Positions 15,103 to 59,542 of a stretch of 64,000 nucleotides of DNA are shown here, piece by piece; the stretch's first letter is position 1, and each line of letters begins with the position of its first letter. The notes beneath the pieces are model-generated. The model made no database searches. It was not told the DNA's origin and saw nothing but the letters and a program-made list of their open reading frames with translations. Origin of the DNA: Dehalococcoidia bacterium (GTDB lineage Bacteria > Chloroflexota > Dehalococcoidia > Tepidiformales > Tepidiformaceae); NCBI GenBank assembly GCA_020850615.1, contig JADZEI010000004.1, forward strand, positions 62,001 through 126,000, in the 5' to 3' direction. The translations under genes were made by a program, and so were the position numbers.

Positions 15103-15198
15103 AGTGGCACCCCTGGCATCGGTGTCCCCACCGCGTGCGGCGGGCGCGCTATCTTACCGCGCCCGCGTCCGCACGTGCCGTAAGAACCACTCGCCGCC

Positions 15199-15756
15199 CT
15201 ACGCGAAGATCGTTCCCACCGGCAGCTCGAAACCCGCTACCTCGAAGCCCGCATCCTCGCTCGTCAGCGTGTCGTCCGGCCCGTACGTGTGGCTGTCGCC
15301 GCCCGGGCGGTAGACCGTCACCGTCCGGTTCCGAAGCCGCACGAGCCACACCCGCTGGCTCCCCGCCGCAATGTACTCCAGCGCCTTCGCCCCCGAGTCC
15401 CGGTCCGGCGTCGATTCCGACACCACCTCCACCGCCAGCGTCGGCGACGCGTGTGGATAGGTCGTCGCCGACCGGCCCGCCGCGCGCCGCCACCAGACGT
15501 CCGGTGCAGCCACACGGTCTGGCGACTCCCTGATGACGAATCCCATCTCGAAACCTGCCTCGCCGAGTTCGTGTGACTCGGTGAACCGGTCAAGCGCTCG
15601 GAAAACGGCGCGGGCAGCAAGGCCGTGGTCTTCACCCGGTGGCGACATGTAGATGACCTCTCCGTCGTACAGCTCCATCTGCCGGCCGTCGGGGTCATCC
15701 GGGAGTTGTGCGAACTCCTCGGCAGTCATCAGGCGCGGAGGCGCAGGCGTGCTCAT
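15199..15756 (-). CDS. Uma2 family (DUF820) PD-(D/E)XK nuclease-like protein, copy A
   Basis: 185-residue Uma2 protein, a restriction-endonuclease-like fold common in cyanobacteria, Chloroflexota and actinobacteria, with no firm role. Likely active residues: D in AAPDVWW, E in LAVEVVSES and K in AKALEY. It is the downstream member of a tandem pair; the first 37 and last about 80 residues are almost identical to copy B while the centre (about 38-104) differs strongly. A TATGAT hexamer six bases before ATG predicts a leaderless mRNA of its own, despite only 29 bases to the upstream gene. Confidence 0.88.
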   Translation of the reverse strand: MSTPAPPRLMTAEEFAQLPDDPDGRQMELYDGEVIYMSPPGEDHGLAARAVFRALDRFTESHELGEAGFEMGFVIRESPDRVAAPDVWWRRAAGRSATTYPHASPTLAVEVVSESTPDRDSGAKALEYIAAGSQRVWLVRLRNRTVTVYRPGGDSHTYGPDDTLTSEDAGFEVAGFELPVGTIFA

Positions 15757-15762
15757 ACCGCC

Positions 15763-15768
15763 ATCATA
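15763..15768 (-). promoter_or_regulatory. -10 element, leaderless start of Uma2 copy A
   Basis: Minus-strand TATGAT ends six bases before ATG 15756, so transcription would begin at the start codon. No Shine-Dalgarno site is present. Confidence 0.65.
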
Positions 15769-15785
15769 CCGGACGGCCCGCCATC

Positions 15786-16352
15786 CTATGCGAAGATCTG
15801 CCCCACCGGCAGTTCGAACCCCGCCACCTCGAAGCCCGCATCCTCGCTCGTGAGTGTGTCGTCCGACTCATACGTGTGACTGTCGCCGCCCGGGCGGTAC
15901 ACCGTCACCGTCCGGTTCCGAAGCCGCACGAGCCACACCCGCTGGCTTCCCGCCGCGATGTACTCCAGCGCCTTCGAACCCGAGTCCCGGTCCGGCGTCG
16001 ATGCCGACACGACCTCCACAGCCAGCGTCGGCGACGCGACCGGGTACGTGCGGCCATCATCGTCGTTGAGCAAACCCGCAGCCGCGAACCACACATCGGG
16101 TGCAGCCACCCGGTCCGGTCCCTCTCGGAGCGCGAACCCCGACTCCACTCCCGCCTCGCCGAGCTGATGCTCCTCGATGAAGGGATACAGCTTCGCGACG
16201 ATTCGTCCTGCTGTTCGGCCGTGTGGCATTCCCGGTGGCGGCATGTAGATGACCTCTCCGTCGTACAGCTCCATCTGCCGGCCGTCGGGGTCATCCGGGA
16301 GTCGTGCGAACTCCTCGGCAGTCATCAGGCGCGGAGGCGCAGGCGTGCTCAT
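15786..16352 (-). CDS. Uma2 family (DUF820) PD-(D/E)XK nuclease-like protein, copy B
   Basis: 188 residues, tandem paralogue of the downstream Uma2 gene. Candidate catalytic residues: D in APDVWF, E in LAVEVVSAS, K in SKALEY. Both ends match copy A nearly base for base (the first 110 or so bases differ at about two positions), whereas the central third is divergent, a mosaic pattern expected from duplication followed by gene conversion of the flanks or diversification of the centre. It has the same leaderless -10 arrangement as copy A. A third, distant Uma2 gene lies at 61.6 kb. Confidence 0.88.
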   Translation of the reverse strand: MSTPAPPRLMTAEEFARLPDDPDGRQMELYDGEVIYMPPPGMPHGRTAGRIVAKLYPFIEEHQLGEAGVESGFALREGPDRVAAPDVWFAAAGLLNDDDGRTYPVASPTLAVEVVSASTPDRDSGSKALEYIAAGSQRVWLVRLRNRTVTVYRPGGDSHTYESDDTLTSEDAGFEVAGFELPVGQIFA

Positions 16353-16358
16353 GCCCCC

Positions 16359-16364
16359 ATCATA
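16359..16364 (-). promoter_or_regulatory. -10 element, leaderless start of Uma2 copy B
   Basis: Minus-strand TATGAT six bases before ATG 16352; identical geometry to copy A. Confidence 0.65.
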
Positions 16365-16370
16365 CCGGAG

Positions 16371-28164: not shown

Positions 28165-28720
28165 CTCAGTGGGGCGCTATCAGTAGCGCACTATCACTAG
28201 CGCGCCATCAGTAGCGCGCGCGTAAGCAAGCGCCCGGCCGCGCACGAGCACCCACGCCCCGCGCCAGCGCGCGACACACCATCAGTGGCGCGACCAACAG
28301 GGAGCGCTCCGCCGCACCCCTGCATCCCCCGCCCGGAGCCAGCACGAACCGCCCCGCAGGGCCACCACGACCCCGGCGGGGGGCGACCCCGCCGCGCAGC
28401 GGTAGTCCCGCCGAGCCCAGCCTCGGCGGCGCGCCAGCCCAACCCATGCCCCGCGGCAGCCCTCCACCACCGCCACACCCCCGAGCTCGGCAGCGCCGCG
28501 CCCGCTCGGCTCGCCCGCCACTCCCCACGCCCCCGGGCCCCCCTCGACCGGCCGCCCCACCACGGTATACGCCCCGAACAGGTGAGCCGGTGCCCCTCGT
28601 GGGCACGGGCGTCAGCCCAACCCATGCCCCGTGGCAGCCAGCCACGCGAGGGCAGCAGCGAAGCGCCCGCCCGGCTCGCGTCCCCCACTCCCCCCGCCCC
28701 CGGCGCCCCGCGCGCGTCCA
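28165..28720. repeat. Interspersed repeat cluster, C-rich, no gene
   Basis: About 670 bases between moeA and the next gene hold diverged copies of the window's repeat family: several CAGTAGCGCGC units (28180-28225), a block near 28401-28465 (GCCGAGCCCAGCCTCGGCGG followed by CCCAACCCATGCC) nearly identical to 35053-35114, and another copy at 28600-28680. Open frames across it are compositional. Confidence 0.8.
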
Positions 28721-30029: not shown

Positions 30030-30389
30030 TGGTGGAGACGCGGGAGAGTTGAACTCCCGGTCCAGCAAGGTTTGGCTCCGAATTATCCTACAGGCTTTCC
30101 CACCAATTAGGGTCTCGTCAGCTGCCTTCGGAGGTGGTCCACGCGTCAGCTAACCAGCCGATGAGTCTTTTGTGGAGGCTATCGGCGTCCTTCCACAGCA
30201 TCCCGGCATTGCGACGTCCATTCCCAACCCCACCGGGCCGAGAGTCGAGATGGACGGCCTCACTTAAGCAGCGAGAGCGAGTTGGCGATTATTGCCAGTT
30301 GTTTTTCGGCCGCCTGATTTACGAGGGTGACAGCCAACCTCGGCCTGCTATCCGGCTACCACAGCCCCCTGTCGATTCCCATCGTCCCC
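30030..30389 (-). ncRNA. ssrA: tmRNA (SsrA)
   Basis: 360-nt transfer-messenger RNA on the minus strand. The 5' end GGGGACG pairs with CGTCTCC before A and an encoded CCA (30030-30032 complement); the T arm GGGAG..GTTCAA..CTCCC is clear. The tag frame ends at TAA (30264-30266 complement) and the ten codons before it (30267-30296) read GNNRQLALAA, a typical ANN...LALAA-type degradation tag; whether resume begins at GGC or further upstream is uncertain. It rescues stalled ribosomes with SmpB. Confidence 0.95.
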
Positions 30390-34964: not shown

Positions 34965-35240
34965 GGGCCCCACGCGCCACGCCGCCCCCCGCGACGCGGA
35001 CGTAACTCCACGCCCCCGCGACAGCGGGGTAACCTGCGCCCCGCGAAAGCGGGGTAGTCCGCCGAGCCCAGCCTCGGCGGAGCGTCTAAGCCCAACCCCT
35101 GCCCCGCGGCAGCCTCGCCCCAGCGCGCGACGCCGCAGCGCCCGCCCGCCTCGCCCGCGACCACCTCCCACCACGCACAGCGCCCGTCCCCACCCCGAGT
35201 CCGGAGACGCGGCGCTCCGCTCTCGCGCAGCCATCCGGTC
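34965..35240. repeat. Interspersed repeat block, left boundary of a reversed-skew segment
   Basis: No gene in the 350 bases after the sulfite-oxidase-like gene. It carries the repeat family's GCCGAGCCCAGCCTCGGCGG block and a 24-bp core at 35091-35114 (starting CCCAACCCCTGCCCCG), which recurs exactly but inverted at 38943-38966. Confidence 0.8.
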
Positions 35241-35317
35241 CCGCGGTGCGCCCGATCGCCCCCGTTGAGCGCGACACCGGCGGTGCGTCGCGCCCCGCGC
35301 CGCCGGGTAGTCCGCCT

Positions 35318-35707
35318 CTACAGAGTGCGCGTGTCGTCGGGAGGTGGGGGTTCTTCGTTGTCGACGAGGGGTGGTTCGGGGCGGAGGTCGTCGTCCATGG
35401 CGGCGACGTCCGGCTCGTCGGTAGGTGGTGGCGGTTCGTGGCGGAAGGAATCGCGGAGCGGGGGCTCGTCGAAGATGACGTCGACCTCGTCGCCGTCGGT
35501 GCGGCGCATTTCGATGCGGTAGCCGAGGACGACCGCGACCACGACGCCGAGGGCCACGAGCAGCGAGGCGAAGAGGGCGACGAAGAGCACGACGACGAGC
35601 GGGAGGTCGAGGAGGGTGCGCTCGTCGTTGCGGACGACGACGTGGCGGACGAGGCCTTCGTGCCATGCGGATTTCATGGTGTCGCGGAAGGAGAGCCGGT
35701 CTGGCAT
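35318..35707 (-). CDS. DUF4342-like membrane-associated protein
   Basis: 129 residues. HEGLVRHVVVRNDERTLLDLP followed by a hydrophobic hairpin (about 35-65, VVVLFVALFASLLVALGVVV) resembles the DUF4342 domain, in which a short beta unit precedes a membrane helix. The C-terminal half is acidic and Pro-rich (EPPPPTDEPD) and probably disordered. ATG 35707 has a GGGAGAC ribosome site. Function unknown. Confidence 0.65.
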   Translation of the reverse strand: MPDRLSFRDTMKSAWHEGLVRHVVVRNDERTLLDLPLVVVLFVALFASLLVALGVVVAVVLGYRIEMRRTDGDEVDVIFDEPPLRDSFRHEPPPPTDEPDVAAMDDDLRPEPPLVDNEEPPPPDDTRTL

Positions 35708-35784
35708 TCGAGTGTCTCCCTGGGTGGGCTGGATGAGGGGTGATGGGGGGCGCCTGGGGCCCCTCATGGGCGGGTGGGGCCTAT

Positions 35785-35823
35785 CACCCTGCCCCTCTCA
35801 CGCTGCGGCGGGCGAGAGGGGAG
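35785..35823. repeat. REP-like palindrome copy 4
   Basis: CACCCTGCCCCTCTCACGC...GCGAGAGGGGAGA, just after the stop of the LLM oxidoreductase gene; same family as 4525, 10320 and 10433. Confidence 0.6.
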
Positions 35824-35834
35824 AGCGGTCGTTG

Positions 35835-36749
35835 CTATAGGCCGTTCTTGGCGATGTGGGCGAGGAAGGTGCGGGTGCGTTCGCGGGCTTCGGGGTCCCC
35901 GGTGACGGGGAAGACGGAGGCGTTGATGTCGGTGACGCCGGCTTCGGCGAGCTGGCGGAGCTGGGCGCGGAGGGAGGTCTCGTCGCCGGCGAGGGCGATC
36001 TGGGCGGGGCCTTCGGCGCCTTCGATGTCCATGACGGCGCGGTAGGAGGGGATGTTCGTGTAGACCTGGAAGACCTTCGCGGCGGTTTCGCGGGCGGACT
36101 CGACGGAGCTGGTGAGGGCGATAGGGAAGCCGGACACGATGCGCGGCTCGGGGCGGCCGGCCTCGGCGGCGGCGGCGCGGATGGTCGGGACGGCGGTCTG
36201 GCCCAGGTATTTCGGGCCGCCCATCCAGGTGGCGGTGCCGTCGGCGAGGCGGCCGGCGACGCGGAGCATCTGCGGGCCGAGGGCGGCGATGAGGGTGGTC
36301 GGCGGCTTCGCGGGGATGGAGATGGCGCCGTTCACGCGGTACTCCTCGCCGGTGAAGGCGACCTGCTCGCCGCGCATGAGCGGCATGAGCACGGAGAGGT
36401 ATTCGCGCATGTGGCGGACGGGCTTCGAGAAGTCGAGGCCGAACATGCCTTCGATGATCATCTTGTGGCTGAGGCCGATGCCGAGGGTGAAGCGGCCATC
36501 GGCGGCAGCGGAAGCGGTGAGCGCCGACTGCGCGAGGGCCAGCGGGTGGCGGGGATAGGTGGGGACGACGAAGGTGCCGAGCTCGATGGTGCTGGTCTCG
36601 CGGCCGGCGAGCGCCATCATCATGATGCCGTCGTAGCTGAAGATGTTCGGGACCCAGGCGGAGGCGAAGCCGTCGGCCTCGGCCTGCTTGATGTGACCGA
36701 TGAGCTTTTCGACGGGGCCGTTGCCGTCGATGAAGATGCCGATGCGCAT
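35835..36749 (-). CDS. LLM class (F420- or FMN-dependent) oxidoreductase
   Basis: 304-residue luciferase-like TIM-barrel protein: MRIGIFIDGNGPVEKLIGHIKQ..., ASAWVPNIF, TYPRHPLALAQSA, LGIGLSHKMIIEGMFG, REYLSVL. Such enzymes use F420 or reduced flavin to oxidise or reduce small molecules; the motif set is closest to the methylene-H4MPT-reductase-like F420 group. ATG 36749 begins the first beta strand. Wobble bases are C-rich, unlike minus-strand genes outside this block. Two further LLM genes are at 39.3 and 45.8 kb; substrate unknown. Confidence 0.9.
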   Translation of the reverse strand: MRIGIFIDGNGPVEKLIGHIKQAEADGFASAWVPNIFSYDGIMMMALAGRETSTIELGTFVVPTYPRHPLALAQSALTASAAADGRFTLGIGLSHKMIIEGMFGLDFSKPVRHMREYLSVLMPLMRGEQVAFTGEEYRVNGAISIPAKPPTTLIAALGPQMLRVAGRLADGTATWMGGPKYLGQTAVPTIRAAAAEAGRPEPRIVSGFPIALTSSVESARETAAKVFQVYTNIPSYRAVMDIEGAEGPAQIALAGDETSLRAQLRQLAEAGVTDINASVFPVTGDPEARERTRTFLAHIAKNGL

Positions 36750-36842
36750 GGTTGTGTCCCCCGGGCGAAGTGAGGCCACTGTACGCAATCACGGGCCGGG
36801 CCGGAACCGTGGGGCCGGGCTGCGGTGGTGCGGCGGGGCCGG

Positions 36843-36848
36843 TAGACT
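36843..36848 (+). promoter_or_regulatory. -10 element, leaderless start of alpha/beta hydrolase
   Basis: TAGACT ends six bases before ATG 36855; no ribosome site. Confidence 0.55.
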
Positions 36849-36854
36849 CGCCGC

Positions 36855-37661
36855 ATGCCGTATGTGCGCGTCAACGCGGGCCGTTTCTACTACGAGCAGC
36901 ATGGTTCGGGGCCGGACCTGCTGTTCCTCCACGGGGCGGGTGGGAACCACCTCTCGTGGTGGCAGCAGGTGCCGGTGTTCGCCGAGCGGTACCGGGTGAC
37001 GGTGTACGACGCGCGCGGCTGGGGCCTTTCGAAGGGCGATACCGCGGCGGCGGGCCGGTGGGTGCTCGGCACGGACGCGGCGGGGATCATGGCGGAGCTC
37101 GGGATCGAGCGGGCGCACATCGTGGCGCAGTCGATGGGTGGGCGGGCGGTGGCGGGGATCGCGCGGATGGCGCCGGGGCGGATCCGGTCGTTGGTGTTGT
37201 GCGGGACGACGGCCGGGGCGACGAATGACCGCATCCGGGAGCTGCAGGACGTGCTCGCGGGAGAGCGTGGCGACGGCGGGCTGCGCGAGCACGCGCTTTC
37301 GAAGCCATTCGAAGCGGCAAACGCGGCGCTGGCCCTGCTCTACCGGCAGATCAACGCGCTCAACCCGCCGCGGCCGCGGGGGCTGTTGGGGCGGCCGCCG
37401 GCGGGCTACCGGGGGAGCATGCACCCGGTGCTGACGGCGCTCGGCGTGCCGGTGCTGTTCGTCGTCGGCGAGTACGACCTGATCACCTCGCCGGAGATGA
37501 TCCGGGAGGCGAGCGAGCTGGTGCCGGGCTCGCGGGTGCACGAGATCGCGGGCGCGGGCCACTCGGCGTACTTCGAGCGGGCGGGGGAGTTCAACGCGGT
37601 GGTGGGGGAGTTCCTCGCGCGGGCGGACGGGGCTGCCGGCTCGGCGGCGGCCGGGGGGTAG
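36855..37661 (+). CDS. Alpha/beta hydrolase
   Basis: 268 residues. Oxyanion-hole motif LFLHGAGGNHLSWW (about 24-37), nucleophile elbow AQSMGGRA (Ser about 94), acid in VVGEYDLITSP and catalytic His in AGAGHSAYFE. It could be an esterase, lactonase or C-C hydrolase; nothing in the context decides. Codons end predominantly in G, opposite to plus-strand genes on either side of the 35.1-39.0 kb block, consistent with the block being inverted. Confidence 0.9.
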   Translation: MPYVRVNAGRFYYEQHGSGPDLLFLHGAGGNHLSWWQQVPVFAERYRVTVYDARGWGLSKGDTAAAGRWVLGTDAAGIMAELGIERAHIVAQSMGGRAVAGIARMAPGRIRSLVLCGTTAGATNDRIRELQDVLAGERGDGGLREHALSKPFEAANAALALLYRQINALNPPRPRGLLGRPPAGYRGSMHPVLTALGVPVLFVVGEYDLITSPEMIREASELVPGSRVHEIAGAGHSAYFERAGEFNAVVGEFLARADGAAGSAAAGG

Positions 37662-37717
37662 CGACGGCGGCAGGGCGGGCGGGATAGGGTGGGGCCACCA
37701 CGCGCGGGAGGGTGGCC

Positions 37718-38287
37718 ATGGACGACCGGCCGGAGGAGCTGACACGGCGGGAGCAGGATGTGCTCGACCTGGCGTCGGCGGGGCTGACGAACGACGAGAT
37801 CGCCGCGCGGCTGGGCCTGACGCACAACGCGGTGCGGTTCCACCTCAAGCGGGTGCACGCGAAGCTCGATACGGGCGGGGACCGGCGGTCACTGAGCGGG
37901 TGGCGGCGGTGGGTGCCGGGGCTGGGCCTCGGGCTGGGGATGGGGAAGGCGGCGGTCGTGCCGGTTGTTGCGATTGGGGGCCTGGGGGTGGCGCTCGCAG
38001 GGGCCGCGGCCGTGTACTTCCCGTCCGGGGGCGGGGGAGCGGCGCCTGCGGTGACACCGGGCGCGGATGGCCGGTACCCGAACGGCTGCCCGGCTTCGTT
38101 CACGGCGCAGCCGGACATCCCGACGCTGGCGGATTACGCGGCAGCGTTCGGGGTGCCGTACGAGGAGCTGGTTGCGCTCAACCCGGAGCTCCCGGCGAGC
38201 GGTGTGCTGCCACTGGGGGCGAATGTGCGGGTGCCATACCGGGAGGATTCGGGGTGTGGGGAGCTGGTGGCGACGCCGACACCGTGA
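37718..38287 (+). CDS. Membrane-tethered LuxR-type HTH protein with extracytoplasmic LysM domain
   Basis: 189 residues. Residues 5-52 are a LuxR/GerE helix-turn-helix (ELTRREQDVLDLASAGLTND, then GLTHNAVRFHLKRVHAKL). One membrane helix lies at about 79-101, then a short linker and a LysM-like domain at about 132-174 (PTLADYAAAFGVPYEELVAL, then LPLGANVRVP) flanked by two cysteines. The DNA-binding part is inside and the putative glycan-binding part outside, so it could report cell-wall state directly to DNA. GGGAGGG precedes ATG 37718. Confidence 0.82.
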   Translation: MDDRPEELTRREQDVLDLASAGLTNDEIAARLGLTHNAVRFHLKRVHAKLDTGGDRRSLSGWRRWVPGLGLGLGMGKAAVVPVVAIGGLGVALAGAAAVYFPSGGGGAAPAVTPGADGRYPNGCPASFTAQPDIPTLADYAAAFGVPYEELVALNPELPASGVLPLGANVRVPYREDSGCGELVATPTP

Positions 38288-38296
38288 TGGCGCGGG

Positions 38297-38812
38297 CTAG
38301 AACGGGAGGCCCTTCGCGCCGTGGACGCCCTTGAGGGCGGCGATTTCGCCGGTGTGCGCGGAGAGGTGCACGAGGCCGAGGGCACCGATGGACTGTGCGA
38401 GTGAGACGGTGCCGCCCGTGATACCCGGGACCTGGCGGTCCAAGTCGGTGTCGGGCGCGGCGGCGAGGTAGTCGAAGAGGGACTGGAACACGTCCGTGGC
38501 GTAGTCCCGGAGGCCGACGAGCTGGTAGGGCGCGTCCGACCAGCCCGGCACCTGCATCAGGCTCGGCGACGGGATGCCGGTGCGCTGCTGCCAGCCGGGG
38601 TCGGCCGCGAGGGGTTCGAGGCCCTGCGCCGTCTGCCGGGCGAGGAGATCGAGGCCCACGAGGATGTGCGCATAGATGGGCAGGATGGCGCCGATCGTGG
38701 CGCCAGGGACGCGCTTCGTCGCGAGGTCGTCCGTGAGGTCGCCGGTGGCGGCGTCGAAGACGAGCTTCGCCATTTGGAATTGGGTGGTCAGCATCTCGGC
38801 GCGGGTGGTCAT
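38297..38812 (-). CDS. DinB-superfamily protein
   Basis: 171-residue helical protein. Histidines in LPIYAHILVGLDLLARQ and LGLVHLSAHTGEIAALKG sit at the positions of the DinB metal ligands. ATG 38812 follows a strong AGGAGG. No neighbour hints at a role; related proteins include mycothiol-dependent enzymes and uncharacterised stress proteins. Its stop is nine bases from the converging LuxR-LysM gene. Confidence 0.75.
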   Translation of the reverse strand: MTTRAEMLTTQFQMAKLVFDAATGDLTDDLATKRVPGATIGAILPIYAHILVGLDLLARQTAQGLEPLAADPGWQQRTGIPSPSLMQVPGWSDAPYQLVGLRDYATDVFQSLFDYLAAAPDTDLDRQVPGITGGTVSLAQSIGALGLVHLSAHTGEIAALKGVHGAKGLPF

Positions 38813-38899
38813 GGGGGGAACCTCCTGGTGCGGGCATTGTGCGCCGTTGTGGGAGGAGTGCGAAGCGGGGTGGCACTGCGGCGTGAGGGGAGGTGTGGG

Positions 38900-39185
38900 C
38901 TTGCGCGGTCGTACTGAGGGGCCGGGCGCTGCCGGATTGGGGGGCTGCCGCGGGGCAGGGGTTGGGTGTAGACCGGTCTCTGGTCCGCCACCGCTGCCGG
39001 GATCGTAGACGACCCGGCCCGTTCGAAGTTACAACGGTCGACGCGACCAGGCCGATCGTCGTCCCGCCCGCCGCTCTCTCATTCGCTATCACCGTGGACC
39101 GCCATCCCGCATCCCCTGCGTCGCCCGCGCCGGACAACGGACAACGGACAACCCGCTGATAACTGATGACCGATAACTGATAACC
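38900..39185. repeat. Inverted copy of the interspersed repeat, then short oligomer repeats
   Basis: The 463-base gap has no gene. Positions 38943-38966 hold the exact reverse complement of the 24-bp core at 35091-35114. At about 39133-39185 there are short direct repeats: GGACAAC units three times, then GATAACTGATGACCGATAAC, a different oligomer family from the CAACAGC type at 4.3 and 20.4 kb. Confidence 0.75.
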
Positions 39186-47737: not shown

Positions 47738-47984
47738 TCGCGCCTCCGACCTCCCGCATCTCGCGCGTGCCGCCGGCCGCGCGGACCAACCTGCGCGTAG
47801 TATGGCCGCGCCCGCCCCAGCACGCGACCTTACAAACGCCCCGCCTTTCTGCGGAACCCAATCCCCGGCGTCGAATGCAAATACAGATTAGGCCCATCCG
47901 GCGTAGGGTGAGCGGGTCACACGGCGCTGCCCGCGGGAACGACACCAGCGGATAGTGTCCGATGACAGGTGCGGGAGGTACGTC

Positions 47985-50900
47985 ATGGCGGGGAACAGGG
48001 GCGAGCGTCGGCCGGGCGGGTTTCGAGCGAGCCTCCAGGCCCAGCACTGGTTCGTCAAGACCATCCTCTTCGTAGTTGTCTTTGTCGTTGCCTCCCCCCT
48101 GCTCGTCGCCTTCTCCGTCGCGCTGTTCGACCCGTTCGGACCGTTCGGCCCCCTGCTGGTCTTCGGCGGCGCCATCATGCTCGGCATCTGGTTCCTCTCC
48201 AGCAGCGATAGCGGCGATAGCGACGCCGAAACCCCCGGCGTCGGGCTTCCCCCGCCGCCGGGCCGCGAACGCCCGGCCCGCCCCCCGCGGTACTGCACCG
48301 CGTGCGGAGCCGCGTTCGACGCCGGGCGCCAGCTCTGCCCGGCCTGCGGCGAAGCCTGGGAACGGCAGCCCGTCACCGTCGCCTACCTCGCCGACGTCCT
48401 GAACGACCTCGCCTGGTTCCGCCACTCCCGGCTCATCAACGAAGATGAGTACGAGCGCCTCCGCGCCCATTACGAAGCCCGCCTCAACGCCATCCGCCCC
48501 GAACCCACACGCGCACCCGAACCAGAACCGGCCCGCGCCCCCGAACCCGAGCCGGAGCCCACGCCGGTACCCCAACCCGCGCCCGCACGCCCAACTCCGC
48601 CACCGCCCCCCTGGCACGCCACGCCACCGCCACCACCACCCACGTCCCCACCCGTGGCAGGCATGCCGCCACCACCGCCCGCGTCCCCGCCCGTCGCGGG
48701 CATGCCGCCGCCACCCCAGCCCACCTCCCATCCCCTCCCGCGGCCACCCGAGCTGCGGCACGCGCCCGTCGCGCCCATCGCCCGCCCCGAAATCCCGCCC
48801 TCTCCGCCCGGCCCCACCATCGGCGACATGGGCCGCACCGTCATCGGCTGGGCCGCCGAACGCCAGGCCGACATCCTCCTCTACGTCGGCGCCTTCCTCC
48901 TCTCTGTCGCCGCGATCATCTTCGTCGCCTACCAGGGCGGCGCCGTCAGCGGCGAAGTCCGCTTCGCCATCCTCACCGCCTACGCGGGCGGCTTCCTCTC
49001 CTTCGGCCTGCTCCTCCACCGCTGGGAGCGCGTGAAAGAAGCCGGCCCCGTCTTCCTCGCCCTCGGTGCCATCCTCGTCCCCGTCGACTTCATCGCACTC
49101 CGCACCCAGGTCCTCTCCGAAGACCAGCTCCCGCTCGATGTCCTCTGGCTCACCGGCTCCGCCGCCACCTCCGCCCTCTACTTCGTGCTCGCCCTCCGCG
49201 GCTACGGCCGCTGGTACGCCGCCCCTGGCGTCCCCGCCGCCATCGTCGCCTGGGGCTCGCTCGGCTCCGTCCTCGGCCTGCCCATCGAGTGGTTCGACCC
49301 CTGGTTCGCCGCGCTCGCATCAGCGCTTTATGTCGCGGCACTCGCCCTCCAGCCCCGCTGGCCCATCCTCCGCCTCGTCCTGCCGCTCGCCCTCGTGATG
49401 GGCCTCGCCGCCATCGCCTTCACCCACGTCGCGATGCTCGCCGGCGATGCCGGCAACTTCGCGCTGCCCACCGCCTACGCCCTTGCGACCGCCGGCATGG
49501 CAGCTGGCCTGCGCTGGGCCAGGCCCGTGCCTGCGCTCGCGTCCGTCCCCGCGCTCGCCGGACTCACCGCCGCCACCACCGCCTGGGCCATCGCCGACCC
49601 CGCCCCCGAGTGGATGCCGCTCTTCGCCGGCGCCACCGGCCTCGGCTACCTCGTCCTCGCCCACCTCGACCGCCCGGACCGCGCACGCGCCTGGGCCACG
49701 CTGCCGCTCGGCCTCCTGGCCGGCGCCGTCATCGTCACCCACGCCCTCGTCCTCGAAGAGGGCGCCGCCCGCGGGCCGCTTCCCGCCGCCTACGGGCTCG
49801 CGCTCGTCGGCGCCGCCGCGGCCTACGCGCGCTGGCGCTGGGCCGAGGCCGCCGCCGTCCTGCCACCCCTCACCGCCGTGGCCGCCCTCACCGCCTCCTG
49901 GGCCATCGCCGACCCCGGCGTGAGCTGGTACGGCGCCTTCGCCGCCATCGCGGTCGCCGGCTACCTCGCCCTCGCCCTCTTCGACCTCCCGGAGCGCCGC
50001 ATCGACTGGCGCGCGCCCGCCATCGCATCCGCGCTCGTTGTGCCCGCCGCCGCCCACGCCGGTCAGGCCGCGCCGGACGCCACCCGCCTCGCCCTCCCGG
50101 CCAGCTACGCCCTCGTCGCCGCGCTCTCGGCGCTCGCCTTCGCCCGCTGGCGCTGGCAGTGGCGCGTCCCGCCCGCGGGGCTTCCCGCCATGGCCGGGGC
50201 CACCGCCCTCACCGCCGCCTGGGCCCAATGGGAGACGCCCGTCGAGTGGTACGGCGCCTTCGCCGCCGGCACCGGCCTCGGCTACCTTCTGCTCGCCCAC
50301 TTCGAACCCGGGCCGTACACGCGCGCCTGGGCCGCCGCGGCCCTCGCCTTCGCCGCAGCCGGCCTCGCTGCGGCCCACGCCACCGCGTTCGAACCCGGCG
50401 TGATGCGCGCCGCCCTCCCCGCGACCTACGGCGTCGCCACCATCGGCATCGCCGCCGTCTTCGCCCGCTGGCGCTGGCAGTTGGTCGAACCGCCCGCGCT
50501 CCTCCCCGCCACCGTCGCGACCGGCGCCATCGCCACCACCTGGGCCGCCTGGGACCTCGCCCCCGAGTGGTGGAGCTCCTTCGCCGCTGCGGCGGCCCTC
50601 GGCTACCTCGCCATTGCCCACTTCGACCCCATCCGGCCGCCCCGCAGCTGGGCCGCCGCCGCGCTCGTGGCCGGGTTTGGCGCCGTCCTCGCCACCCACG
50701 CCCTCATCGCCCGCGAAGACGCCACCCGCGCAGCCCTCCCGGCCGTCTACGCCGTCGCCACCGTGGGCATCGCCGCCGCCTTCGCCCGCTGGCGCTGGCA
50801 GTGGGTCGAGCCGCCCGCGCTCCTGCCGGCCACCGTCGCGACCGGCGCCATCGCCACTGGCTGGGCCGCCTGGGACCTCGCCCCCGAGTGGTGGGGCTGC

Positions 50901-53669
50901 TTCGCCGCAGCCGCCGGCCTCGGCTACCTCGCCATCGCCCTCTTCGACCCGCAACCTCGCACCCGGGCCTGGGGCGCCGCCGCGCTCACCGCCGGCGCAG
51001 GCGCCCTCGCCGCCACCCACGCCCTCGTCCTCGCCGACGGTGCCGCGCGCGAAGCCCTGCCCATCGCCTACGCGCTTGTGACCATCGGCGCATCCGGCGC
51101 ATACGGCCGCTGGCGCTGGGTCGAAGCGGGCGCGCTCATGCCGGTGACCAGCTCACTCGCGGGGCTCACAGCCGCCTGGGCATCCGGCGGCATCGCCTTC
51201 GAGTGGTACGGCGCCTTCGCTGCCGCCGCCGCCCTCGGCTATCTCGCGCTCGCCCGGTTCGACCGCCCCGCCCGCAGTCGCGGCTGGCGGTCCGCCGCCT
51301 TCGGTTGCGCCAAGCTCGCCCTCGGGCTCGCCCACGGCACCGCCCTGGGCAGCGCCGACATCAACCGCGCCGCCGTGCCCGTCACCGACGCCATGGTCCT
51401 CGCCGGTGCCTCGTTCGCCGCCGCGCGCTGGCCCTTCTCCTGGCGCCTCGAACCGGCGATGATCCCGCTCCTCGCGCCGCTCACCGCCGCCTCCGCCGCC
51501 TGGGCTACCTGGGACATCGACCCCGCCTGGTACGGCGCCTTCGTGGTCGCGGCCGCCGCCGGCTACCTCATCCTCGCCGAGCTCGACACCGCCGCCTGGC
51601 GCCGGAACTGGCTCTCCGCGGGCCTGCTCGCCGCCGTCGCCGGTGTCGCCGCCGCCCACGCCGGCCAGCTCGGCGAGGACGCCCCGCGCTACGCCCTGGC
51701 GCTCGCCTACGCCGAAGCCGCGGCCGCCACCGCCTTCATGGCTCTGCGCTGGCGCTGGGTCTTCCGCGCAGGCGTCGTCGTCGCGCCGATCCTGGCCTCC
51801 GGCGCGGCCGCCTCCCTCGGCTGGGCCGGCTGGGACATGCGGCTCGACTGGCTGCCCGCCTTCGCCGCCGCAGCAGCCGCCGCCTACCTGCTCCCCGCCG
51901 CCTTCGACACCGCCCAGCGCAACGGGTGGCGCGCCGCCATGTACACCGGCTTCGTCATCGCCGCAGCCGCCGCCCACGCGGTCGCGACCGGCGAGGCCGT
52001 CGCGCGCTGGGAGCTCCCGGTCACCTGGGCGATCGCCCTCGCCGCCTCCACCTGGGATGCCTACCGTGCGCGCGGCCAGGCGCTCCTCGTCCCGCCCGCC
52101 GCCGCCTCTATGCTCGGCGGCACCGCGCTCTGGGCCGCCGGCGTTGCGCCCGAGTACTGGGGCTACCCGGCACTGGGGGTCGCCGCCACCATGGTCGCGA
52201 CCCACCGCTTCTGGGGCCGCGACCCCCAAGCCGCCAGCATCGGCTGGGGCTACGCCCTCACGCTCGCCGCCGGCAGCACCTTCGCCTTCCTCCCGGTCGA
52301 CTTCGGGCACCCTGCCCACGGCGTCGCGATGCAGGCCGCCACCGCGGTCCTCGTCGCCTGCGCCGCGCTCCTGGCGAACGGCGCGCTCTCCCGGCTCTTC
52401 GCCCCCGACCCCGCCCCGCTCTATCCCGTGCTCGAACGCGCGGTCCTCTGGCAGGTGTCCTGTGCCTTCCTCTTCGGCGCCGCCGCCTCGCTCAACAGCG
52501 CCCTCGAGCTCGCCGGCGCCGAACGCGCCTGGCTGTTCGTCGGCCTCGGCGCGGCCGCCTGGCTGCCCGCCGCCGCCCTCGGACGCAAGGGCGAGTGGTT
52601 CTGGACCTTCGCCCCCGTCGGGCTCATCGGCACCACCGCCGGCGCCGCCCTCGCCGCACCCTCCGATGCCGCGCTCACCGCAGCCCTGGGTGTCGCCACC
52701 GTCGCGCCACTCGTCGTCTTCGCCGGTGCGCGACGCTGGATGCTGCTCGGCATCGCCAACTCGTTCCTGCTGCTCGCGCTCTGGGCGGCGTGGCGCTGGC
52801 AGGACGTGGAGCTTGCCTACCTCCCGCTCGCGATCGCCGCCCTCGCCATGCTCGAATGGGCCGCCCTCTACCCGCTCCGCCGCTACGTCCGCACCTTCGG
52901 CGAAACCGACGCCATCGTCGCCTACATCTCCTGGGGGCCGTGGCTCGTCTCCGGCGCCGTCTCCGCGCTCGTGCTCGCGGACGAAGGCGGCTCGCTCGAA
53001 CAGGGCGAGAAGCTCGTCACCACCGAGGCCTGGTCGCTCACCGCCGCCGTCCTCGCCATGGCCACTGCCGCGATCGTCGCCGAGGGCTTCCGCCTGCGCG
53101 AACGCTGGGTCTGGCTACCGGCCACCGTCGGCCTGCTCGGCGCCACGCTCATGGCCATCGCCACCCGCGAACCCACGAACATCCAGGCCTACACCGCGCC
53201 CATCGGCGTCTACCTCGTCGCCGCCGCCCTCACCTATCGCGCGACCCCGTTCGTCTTCGCGCGCCACATGCAGGTCCACGAAGCGGTGATGCTCGCCGGC
53301 GTGCTCTTCCTCGTCCTCCCGCCCGCCGAACAGAGCTTCGACCCCGACGGCGGCAAGTTCGGGCTCGAGCTCATCGGCATCGGCATCGTCCTCCTGCTCG
53401 TCGGGCTCGTCCTGCACGCGCGCTGGCTCGTCCCCGCCGCCATCGCCACCCTCACCGCCGTCTCCCTCCGCCTCGTCACCGGCGGCATGGTCTCCGTGCC
53501 CTACTGGCTCATCCTCGGCGTCGCCGGCACCGTCCTCATCGCCTTCGGCTTCCTCGTCCTCCTCGAACGCGAACGCTGGGACCAGTTCCGCCTAGCCGTC
53601 GTCCGCTGGTGGGGCGAAGCCGTCAAACCCCCTCCCGGCGCCCGCCCCCCCACTCCCACCAGCCGCTAA
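47985..53669 (+). CDS. Giant repetitive polytopic membrane protein with zinc ribbon
   Basis: 1,894 residues from ATG 47985 (GGGAGGT ribosome site; the GTG ten codons earlier is rejected). N-terminal two-helix segment, a zinc ribbon (CTACGAAFDAGRQLCPACG, about 102-120), a short SHOCT-like helix (LAWFRHSRLINEDEYERLRA), a long Pro-rich linker with PPVAGMPPPP repeats, then about 1,550 hydrophobic residues. The core has about nine tandem units of roughly 107 residues, each starting LPxxYAL and containing ARWRW, EWYGAFAA and GYLxLAxFD. Similar SCO7613-type giant membrane proteins exist in actinobacteria; function unknown. Confidence 0.88.
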   Translation: MAGNRGERRPGGFRASLQAQHWFVKTILFVVVFVVASPLLVAFSVALFDPFGPFGPLLVFGGAIMLGIWFLSSSDSGDSDAETPGVGLPPPPGRERPARPPRYCTACGAAFDAGRQLCPACGEAWERQPVTVAYLADVLNDLAWFRHSRLINEDEYERLRAHYEARLNAIRPEPTRAPEPEPARAPEPEPEPTPVPQPAPARPTPPPPPWHATPPPPPPTSPPVAGMPPPPPASPPVAGMPPPPQPTSHPLPRPPELRHAPVAPIARPEIPPSPPGPTIGDMGRTVIGWAAERQADILLYVGAFLLSVAAIIFVAYQGGAVSGEVRFAILTAYAGGFLSFGLLLHRWERVKEAGPVFLALGAILVPVDFIALRTQVLSEDQLPLDVLWLTGSAATSALYFVLALRGYGRWYAAPGVPAAIVAWGSLGSVLGLPIEWFDPWFAALASALYVAALALQPRWPILRLVLPLALVMGLAAIAFTHVAMLAGDAGNFALPTAYALATAGMAAGLRWARPVPALASVPALAGLTAATTAWAIADPAPEWMPLFAGATGLGYLVLAHLDRPDRARAWATLPLGLLAGAVIVTHALVLEEGAARGPLPAAYGLALVGAAAAYARWRWAEAAAVLPPLTAVAALTASWAIADPGVSWYGAFAAIAVAGYLALALFDLPERRIDWRAPAIASALVVPAAAHAGQAAPDATRLALPASYALVAALSALAFARWRWQWRVPPAGLPAMAGATALTAAWAQWETPVEWYGAFAAGTGLGYLLLAHFEPGPYTRAWAAAALAFAAAGLAAAHATAFEPGVMRAALPATYGVATIGIAAVFARWRWQLVEPPALLPATVATGAIATTWAAWDLAPEWWSSFAAAAALGYLAIAHFDPIRPPRSWAAAALVAGFGAVLATHALIAREDATRAALPAVYAVATVGIAAAFARWRWQWVEPPALLPATVATGAIATGWAAWDLAPEWWGCFAAAAGLGYLAIALFDPQPRTRAWGAAALTAGAGALAATHALVLADGAAREALPIAYALVTIGASGAYGRWRWVEAGALMPVTSSLAGLTAAWASGGIAFEWYGAFAAAAALGYLALARFDRPARSRGWRSAAFGCAKLALGLAHGTALGSADINRAAVPVTDAMVLAGASFAAARWPFSWRLEPAMIPLLAPLTAASAAWATWDIDPAWYGAFVVAAAAGYLILAELDTAAWRRNWLSAGLLAAVAGVAAAHAGQLGEDAPRYALALAYAEAAAATAFMALRWRWVFRAGVVVAPILASGAAASLGWAGWDMRLDWLPAFAAAAAAAYLLPAAFDTAQRNGWRAAMYTGFVIAAAAAHAVATGEAVARWELPVTWAIALAASTWDAYRARGQALLVPPAAASMLGGTALWAAGVAPEYWGYPALGVAATMVATHRFWGRDPQAASIGWGYALTLAAGSTFAFLPVDFGHPAHGVAMQAATAVLVACAALLANGALSRLFAPDPAPLYPVLERAVLWQVSCAFLFGAAASLNSALELAGAERAWLFVGLGAAAWLPAAALGRKGEWFWTFAPVGLIGTTAGAALAAPSDAALTAALGVATVAPLVVFAGARRWMLLGIANSFLLLALWAAWRWQDVELAYLPLAIAALAMLEWAALYPLRRYVRTFGETDAIVAYISWGPWLVSGAVSALVLADEGGSLEQGEKLVTTEAWSLTAAVLAMATAAIVAEGFRLRERWVWLPATVGLLGATLMAIATREPTNIQAYTAPIGVYLVAAALTYRATPFVFARHMQVHEAVMLAGVLFLVLPPAEQSFDPDGGKFGLELIGIGIVLLLVGLVLHARWLVPAAIATLTAVSLRLVTGGMVSVPYWLILGVAGTVLIAFGFLVLLERERWDQFRLAVVRWWGEAVKPPPGARPPTPTSR

Positions 53670-57430: not shown

Positions 57431-57545
57431 GCTTCCTCCGGCGGGCCAGCCGGGCCCGCCGGGCCATACTCGCGGCGCCACTACGTGACGGCAACCCGCC
57501 TTCGCCGTTCCGTAGACTGCGCCAAACACCAGCTGGAGGGTCCCC

Positions 57546-57770
57546 GTGTTCGCTGCCTGGACTGCCGAAGCGCGCGACGGCCAGTCGCTCGAACGGCTCA
57601 TCGAAGCCCACCTGAACGAGTTCGCCGAGACCGTCGTCAGCGTCTCCTATCACGTCAGCGAGTCCGGCGTGCACCGAGCACTCGCCGTCTACATCGAGAT
57701 CGAGGCGGAACTGGACGACGACTTCGTGGCGGCAGCGGAGCTGGCCATACTGCAGGAGTCGCCGCGTTAG
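57546..57770 (+). CDS. Hypothetical protein, 74 residues
   Basis: Small acidic alpha/beta protein (LIEAHLNEFAETVVSVSYHV, then HRALAVYIEIEAELDDDFVA) with GTG start preceded by GGAGGG. I do not recognise the family. It ends just before a strong hairpin and converges on the secreted protein gene. Confidence 0.6.
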   Translation: MFAAWTAEARDGQSLERLIEAHLNEFAETVVSVSYHVSESGVHRALAVYIEIEAELDDDFVAAAELAILQESPR

Positions 57771-57772
57771 CC

Positions 57773-57800
57773 GGGTGCCGCTGCCGCTTCAGCGGCACCC
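57773..57800. terminator. Perfect 11-bp hairpin between converging genes
   Basis: GGGTGCCGCTG, loop CCGCTT, CAGCGGCACCC. It lies two bases after the small gene's stop and 15 bases from the stop of the opposing gene; no U-run. Confidence 0.65.
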
Positions 57801-57814
57801 ACGTGCGCCGGCTG

Positions 57815-59542
57815 CTACCGCACGCTGAAGGTCGCCGCGGCGTTGTTCCAGTGCAGCACCGAGCCCCAGCCCGCGGTGAACACGCCGACCTTGACGGTGT
57901 AGTTCCCCGTTCGAGCGCTCAGGGGCACGCGCCAGCTCGCCTGGAACGTCCGGGATTGGCCCGCGGTGAACGACTGGCCGTCGTAGTACCGCTGGTAGAC
58001 CTTTCGCCCGGAAGAGTCGTACACCTCGATGTCGACCAGAACGGTGCCGGCCGCCGGGGCACGGACGGCGGCGCTGATCGCGACCGTCCCACCACGCCGG
58101 ACCGAAGTGGTACCGGCGGTCGCGGAGCTGGACCACGCCGCTGGGACGGTCACCGTAGGTGGCGGGGTACTCGTTGCCGTGCCGGTGGGCGTTGGCGTGG
58201 CGGTGGCGGTCCGGGTTGGCGTGGGGGTCGAGACCGTCGGGGTCGGCGTTGGCACCGAACCACCGCCACCGACCGGCATCGCCCCGGCGCTGTAGTACGC
58301 CTTCGCCCTCGCCTTGAAGTAGCCGCCATCGTCGTCGGCGTTGAGCGAGACCGCGGTGTTGCCGTTGATCGCCGCCGGGTTGGTCACGCCGTCGCCCATC
58401 GCGTCGCACGCACAGGTCGTACCGGAGGCGCCGCCGCCGAAGAGGAACGCGTCCACCCCGGCATCGGCGTAGGCCCGCAGGTTCGCACGGCCGGGGTCGT
58501 CGAGGAGCCACTCGACGCGATTGTCCTGGTAGTGGCCCCAGGTGTTGTTCTGGGCGCGCATCTTCGTGTTGCCCAGCGGGATCTGCCACATGACGATGGG
58601 CCGCGCCGTCTGCGAGCTGAACACCGACAGGTAGCGGACGTTCCGGGCGAAGTCAGCAGCATCCCACCACCGGGAGCCATCGCCGTAAACGTGCTGGTAG
58701 AAGCCGGCGTCGCGGTCGGCGAACTCGGCGAACGTGACATCGAAGCCTGCGCCAAGCGAGGCATAGAACGCCGCCGAGCGGCGGGCGAGGGCGTCGATCG
58801 TCTCGTTCGACGGGTTCGAAGCAGCCGGGTCAACACCCGTGCCCCATGTGCTCAGGCCGTACCCGATCGCGACGTTCGGGGCGTACCGGTCGCGGAGCCT
58901 GACGACTGCCTGGGCCACGCCCGCCAGGTTGTTCGGCAGCCCGGCGAGCTCCGGGAGCCCGCTGCTGCCGACCACGGCGGGGACGGTCGCGGCGTTGTCG
59001 CCGCTGGCCCGCTGCTGCCCGAAGCCCCACAGGTCGGGCTCGACATGGAGCACGACCAGTTGGGACGGGAACGCCGCCGCCTTCTGGAAGAAGAGCCGCA
59101 GGTCGCTGTAGTACGAGGCCATCGTGCCGGCGTTCTGCAGGTTCCCGAGGACACCGTCGACTTCGCCCTGGTTGTTCCCGGGCGCGGACTGCCGGATCTG
59201 ATAGTAAGTGAACACGGGGACGATCCCGTTCGCGACCGAGTCCTCGATGTAATAGCGGACGAACTCGCCACCGGTGTTCCAGGTCGCCCATCCGCTGCCT
59301 GTGTTCACACCGCCGGCGAGATACTGGTAGCGGAACCCGGCACCTGTAGCCGCCTTCAGCGCCGCGGCACCGCCTGGACTATCGGACACGCCCAGCTGGA
59401 CGGTCGTGGGCCAGCGGGCCGGCAGGGGCGGGGTCGCGGCGCCGGCTGTCCGGGCAGCGTCGATGCCCATACCGCCGACGACTACCGCACCCAGAAGTGC
59501 AGCGGCCGCAAGCCCGCCCGCCAAAAACCTCGGAAAACGCAT
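57815..59542 (-). CDS. Secreted protein with TIM-barrel-like domain, PT linker and C-terminal beta domain
   Basis: 575 residues. Signal peptide 1-36 (FLAGGLAAAALLGAVVVGG, AGAA). Residues about 45-390 look like a glycoside-hydrolase-type barrel: VFTYYQIRQSAPGN, LVVLHVEPDLWGFGQQ and VMWQIPLGNTKMRAQNNTWG contain candidate Glu/Asp acids at strand ends. A Pro/Thr-rich linker (about 430-470) leads to a beta domain (VRRGGTVAISAAVRAPAAGT, ending LHWNNAAATFSVR) that may bind carbohydrate. I cannot name a GH family. GGAG precedes the ATG. Confidence 0.8.
   Translation of the reverse strand: MRFPRFLAGGLAAAALLGAVVVGGMGIDAARTAGAATPPLPARWPTTVQLGVSDSPGGAAALKAATGAGFRYQYLAGGVNTGSGWATWNTGGEFVRYYIEDSVANGIVPVFTYYQIRQSAPGNNQGEVDGVLGNLQNAGTMASYYSDLRLFFQKAAAFPSQLVVLHVEPDLWGFGQQRASGDNAATVPAVVGSSGLPELAGLPNNLAGVAQAVVRLRDRYAPNVAIGYGLSTWGTGVDPAASNPSNETIDALARRSAAFYASLGAGFDVTFAEFADRDAGFYQHVYGDGSRWWDAADFARNVRYLSVFSSQTARPIVMWQIPLGNTKMRAQNNTWGHYQDNRVEWLLDDPGRANLRAYADAGVDAFLFGGGASGTTCACDAMGDGVTNPAAINGNTAVSLNADDDGGYFKARAKAYYSAGAMPVGGGGSVPTPTPTVSTPTPTRTATATPTPTGTATSTPPPTVTVPAAWSSSATAGTTSVRRGGTVAISAAVRAPAAGTVLVDIEVYDSSGRKVYQRYYDGQSFTAGQSRTFQASWRVPLSARTGNYTVKVGVFTAGWGSVLHWNNAAATFSVR

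Follow-up and report, generated by a model that had tools for sequence, protein, structure and literature searches.

Gene inversions have been inferred from reversed GC skew (Merrikh and Merrikh 2018, PMC6220195), and such skew-based inversions have been criticized for the use of whole genes and the lack of a phylogeny (Liu and Zhang 2022, PMC9098844). As in the former study, a local reversal of strand composition was taken here as the record of an inversion. PMC9098844 asks for evidence from third codon positions and from gene orientation in relatives; the present reversal was also seen at third codon positions. In contrast to PMC6220195, the reversal here covered five adjacent genes on both strands along with the intergenic DNA and had sharp edges, a pattern that selection acting gene by gene cannot produce. 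The locus also resembles REP/BIME-type repeats in having more than 100 hairpin-bearing units, often in tandem, with a break that probably fell at a unit, but its sequence family is private to the lineage. With invertons it shares inverted repeats near both ends; unlike them, it has no recombinase, its breaks do not lie at these repeats, and there is no evidence of switching. Reading an inversion from skew is already known, flips of such small blocks are ordinary, and the block is a good example of a familiar type of event.

Reversed composition of a five-gene block

The window, i.e., the whole stretch of 64,000 nucleotides analysed, comprises bases 62001-126000 of a 348-kb contig (C4) in a draft genome of 4.17 Mb (95 contigs, 95% complete). 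GC skew on its plus strand was about -0.20 over 57 kb and about +0.23 in one block. In 1-kb steps from 1 to 57 kb, the skew ranged from -0.08 to -0.38, with the exception of 35.0-39.0 kb, where it was +0.11 to +0.25. A two-state likelihood segmentation of G and C supported a block at 35322-38971 by 265 nats, as against 12 nats for the runner-up segment in the rest of 1-57 kb, and gave 95% intervals of 35255-35341 for the left break and 38963-39057 for the right one. The block, delimited by the G/C segmentation and a truncated stub ending at 35316, and its genes are as follows:

35317-38972, no strand: inverted block with putative breaks
35318-35767, minus strand: DUF4342 protein gene (PF14242, E=4.5e-11), its stop codon adjoining the left break
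35835-36752, minus strand: LLM1, luciferase-like monooxygenase gene (PF00296, E=8.2e-55)
36855-37661, plus strand: abh, alpha/beta hydrolase gene (PF00561, E=1.3e-27), divergent partner of LLM1
37712-38287, plus strand: LuxR-type HTH gene (PF00196, E=3.1e-12), with, both by eye, a transmembrane stretch and a LysM-like C-terminus
38297-38812, minus strand: small DinB-like gene, assigned by eye, with no Pfam match

Both breaks are intergenic, no gene is cut, and the Pfam matches in the block include no mobile-element genes.

A preliminary description of this DNA had proposed that plus-strand genes favour C-ending codons and minus-strand genes G-ending codons outside the block, with the reverse in the five block genes, and had named third-position GC skew beforehand as the check. 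When computed, this skew changed sign at the block as proposed. Read on the plus strand, it was negative in all 35 flanking called genes (18 plus, 17 minus, to 57.6 kb; 0/35 reversed) and positive in 5/5 block genes, at +0.30 to +0.57. On the coding strand, the flanking plus-strand genes had a mean of -0.55 and the minus-strand genes of +0.25, while the block genes, set back into the pre-inversion strand frame, had values of -0.49 and +0.37. Since the composition of the block showed no sign of decay, the inversion is recent on the scale of synonymous change, and the earlier view of a recent event with unadjusted composition was supported. With its sharp-edged reversal, in which the genes of both strands behaved alike, the block is very probably a recently flipped piece of the chromosome of about 3.65 kb whose composition is still that of the opposite strand. 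It was the only embedded block of contrary skew in the 1.638 Mb surveyed (39% of the genome), of which about 0.9 Mb was skewed strongly enough according to a count of 10-kb values.

Another change of skew was seen at 57500-58000, where the value rises from about -0.2 to near 0, before reaching +0.13 over the next 80 kb of the contig, like an origin or the joint of a large rearrangement. The dnaA gene is absent from contig C4 and sits on another contig (C70).

Among relatives, the divergent LLM1-abh pair was kept in several family genomes, with identities of 60-67% for LLM1 and 69-76% for abh. The pair is therefore native to the family, which argues that the block is not foreign. No clear orthologue of the DUF4342, LuxR-type and DinB-like genes was found in 38 family genomes, and the flanking genes lay beside the block genes in no relative checked. 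Gene order was not conserved in 40 relatives and 11 named contigs, none of them from the same genus. The strand of abh relative to the skew was mixed among the relatives, so that these give no polarity.

Hairpin repeats at the two ends of the block

The preliminary description had the block bounded by an exact 24-bp inverted repeat of an interspersed family. The repeat is indeed exact at 35091-35114 and 38943-38966 (31 nt at 94% when extended), such an inverted repeat was expected 0 times in shuffles, and the family has 36 copies in the 1.64 Mb of genome surveyed when up to 3 mismatches are allowed. The arms do not bound the block, however: the left composition break is about 200 bp inward of the left arm, and the right arm lies just inside the right break, where the arm and its tail are flipped.

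On the C-rich strand, the full repeat unit reads approximately GCGCAGCGGGGTAGTCCGCCGAGCCCAGCCTCGGCGGCGCGTCTAAGCCCAACCCATGCCCCGCGGCAGCC and consists of a hairpin module followed by the core. A second type of hairpin (GCGCCCCTCGTGGGCGC) was likewise found ahead of the core. The first hairpin module had 102 instances in this genome, 2 in one other family genome and 0 in the other 36. The hairpin repeat family is thus private to the lineage, with interchangeable hairpin modules before one core, and it is REP-like in that many short palindromic units (36 cores, 102 hairpin modules) occur in one genome. Tandem units 110-250 bp apart are common; the spacing of tandem pairs was 178 bp at 28.4 kb in the window and 208-253 bp elsewhere. 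Hairpin repeats in the window were observed at about 28431-28645, 35048-35114 and 38943-38973. Within skewed regions, the orientation of the repeat matched the local GC skew in 22/27 copies, as if insertion or retention of the repeat depended on the direction of replication. The right copy fits this rule only if it was flipped with the block, which supports the flip.

The repeat-related features at the two ends are:

35048-35114, plus strand: complete repeat unit 1, outside the block, consisting of the GGGTAGTCC module with a 9-bp-stem hairpin, GTCTAAG and the core, and holding the left arm (35091-35114)
35115-35316, no strand: tail behind unit 1, 202 bp, not flipped, with 61 G and 103 C
35297-35316, plus strand: stub GCGCCGCCGGGTAGTCCGCC, 18/20 identical to the 5' module of the repeat, ending before the hairpin and within the left break interval
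35317-35322, plus strand: TCTACA, inverted partner of 38967-38972 and possible 6-bp microhomology
38943-38973, minus strand: repeat core 2, which starts at GTCTA, lacks a clear 5' module, lies within the block at the right end and holds the right arm (38943-38966)
38967-38972, plus strand: TGTAGA, partner of 35317-35322

The composition of the block is flipped and that of the tail is not, the unflipped state of 35115-35316 being favoured by 19 nats. The tails of other repeat copies had a mean skew of +0.06 (sd 0.13) in neutral surroundings and tracked the local skew elsewhere. These tails are not C-rich by nature, so that the C-richness of 35115-35316 is no property of the repeat. The truncated stub GCGCCGCCGGGTAGTCCGCC, which was spotted only after the left break had been placed, adjoins the end of the DUF4342 gene instead of a hairpin, and no other instance of the 5' module without a hairpin occurs in 3.28 million strand-bases. 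Core 2, at the right end, is alone among the 36 copies (up to 3 mismatches, 1.64 Mb) in having no hairpin module in front, as counted from the table.

Probable origin of the inversion

We consider it probable that one local inversion, spanning about 3.66 kb (35317-38972), took place, in which the left break split the second unit of a tandem repeat, and that crossover between the 24-bp arms was not the route. The stretch between the molybdopterin oxidoreductase gene and the block would originally have held two tandem units on one strand, spaced by about 232 bp, and the un-inverted gene order, which no relative checked was found to have, would have been sulfox+ DinB+ LuxR- abh- LLM1+ DUF4342+ LLM2+. 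Within the second unit, the left break may have come after the GGTAGTCCGCC stem arm, with the other break between the DUF4342 and LLM2 genes. The flip would thereby have moved the core of the second unit to the opposite end of the block and left it there as an inverted copy of unit 1, while the stub and core 2 would be parts of one former unit whose intervening hairpin was presumably lost at the break. Most likely there was a double break, one of the two at a presumably break-prone hairpin repeat, and the block was rejoined in reverse, presumably through illegitimate or microhomology-aided repair to which the 6-bp TCTACA/TGTAGA pair may have contributed. Provided that the leading strand is the G-rich one, the flip would have made the head-on genes DUF4342, LLM1 and DinB co-directional and the co-directional genes abh and LuxR head-on; no selective benefit is claimed for this reorientation of the genes.

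When 35317-38972 was un-inverted in silico, the stub came to lie directly before core 2, in the direction of unit 1 and 232 bp from it, a spacing that fits the other tandem pairs and thus supports a split unit. The rejoined stub and core 2 had a repeat-profile score of 6.4 bits, equal to the control median, a poor result that is due to the missing hairpin. Right of core 2, the present DNA weakly resembles a degenerate module, with 13.1 bits, a score reached by about 0.5% of controls, while pairwise alignment of the DNA beyond core 2 to the module gave nothing (p = 0.34). A genuine module there would shift the right break some tens of bases to the right, and the stub could then not be the missing half of core 2. 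The weak module is the main doubt on the exact right break, not on the inversion. About two pairs such as TCTACA/TGTAGA are expected by chance within both break intervals, by estimate; the pair is consistent with the proposed rejoining and not significant by itself. A 10-bp perfect palindrome, AGACCGGTCT, was also observed at the right break (38970-38979).

The preliminary description attributed the inversion to recombination between repeat copies, and the association with the repeat stands. Homologous recombination between the 24-31-bp inverted copies would require that the C-rich tail and the stub, then in the right-hand element, already ran against the local skew. Its attraction is that the exact 24-bp arms share a variant (CCCCTGCC for CCCATGCC) absent from all other copies, that both cores are near the breaks and that a weak module remnant precedes the right core. 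We nevertheless regard it as unlikely, since the same 19 nats speak for an unflipped tail at 35115-35316 and C-richness is not inherent in such tails; it also leaves the truncated stub at the break unexplained. The breaks were not found within the repeat arms, the left break at 35255-35341 lying beyond the arm end at 35114, and a crossover between the arms would not have left one copy outside the block and one inside it. Furthermore, 24 bp is short for RecA-type exchange. A little less likely again is that the block was moved rather than flipped in place, as an insert from the other replichore or in the other orientation. Skew alone cannot separate a flip from a move, and the block genes were never beside the flanking genes in the relatives examined, but the pieces of repeat at the two ends are compatible with a single split unit, the GC content and the strength of the skew, once reversed, equal those of the flanks, and there are neither mobile-element genes inside nor an integrase or resolvase on the contig.

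An assembly error, by which the block would be inverted in the contig only, is very improbable even in a draft genome of 95 contigs, because the joins are not at long identical repeats and the region has no runs of N. Arms of 24-31 nt are also shorter than the usual assembly words. A phase-variable inversion, which the preliminary description named as something to look for in long reads, would agree with the inverted repeats close to each end of a multi-gene segment that includes a regulator, but it found no support and is the least credible of these readings: tyrosine and serine recombinases (PF00589, PF00239) had no match on the 348-kb contig C4, so that none is in or near the block, and the arms are not at the break points. 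Moreover, the composition indicates a long-standing orientation followed by one flip, whereas frequent switching would tend to average the skew.

Implications and other features of the window

The block is a clean example of a small inversion that can be read from one genome alone, which is possible because the strand bias is unusually strong (GC3 skew of about 0.5 in plus-strand genes). It also illustrates that inverted repeats paired near the two ends of a block are not necessarily what caused its inversion. Inverting a block that holds one of two tandem repeats creates an inverted pair, which calls for caution when repeat-mediated inversion is deduced from sequence only. A more far-reaching idea, that the lineage's tandem hairpin repeats act as hot spots for breaks and repeatedly flip small multi-gene blocks, is improbable. 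If it were true, the flips would switch which genes face the replication fork, and the repeat family and the strand composition would together record a running history of inversions.

Several other features were observed in the window. Rfam matches were limited to tRNAs and a tmRNA gene at 30030-30389 on the minus strand (RF00023, 141 bits), the latter not reported by ARAGORN. A 1904-aa frame (47955-53669) encodes a protein with repeated domains and contains, at 49554-51758, about seven tandem copies of a unit of about 320 bp that are 60-73% alike. Finally, the region 15192-16369 holds two adjacent near-duplicate genes (15199-15756 and 15786-16352), which are 90-97% alike at the DNA level in parts and thus point to a recent tandem duplication.
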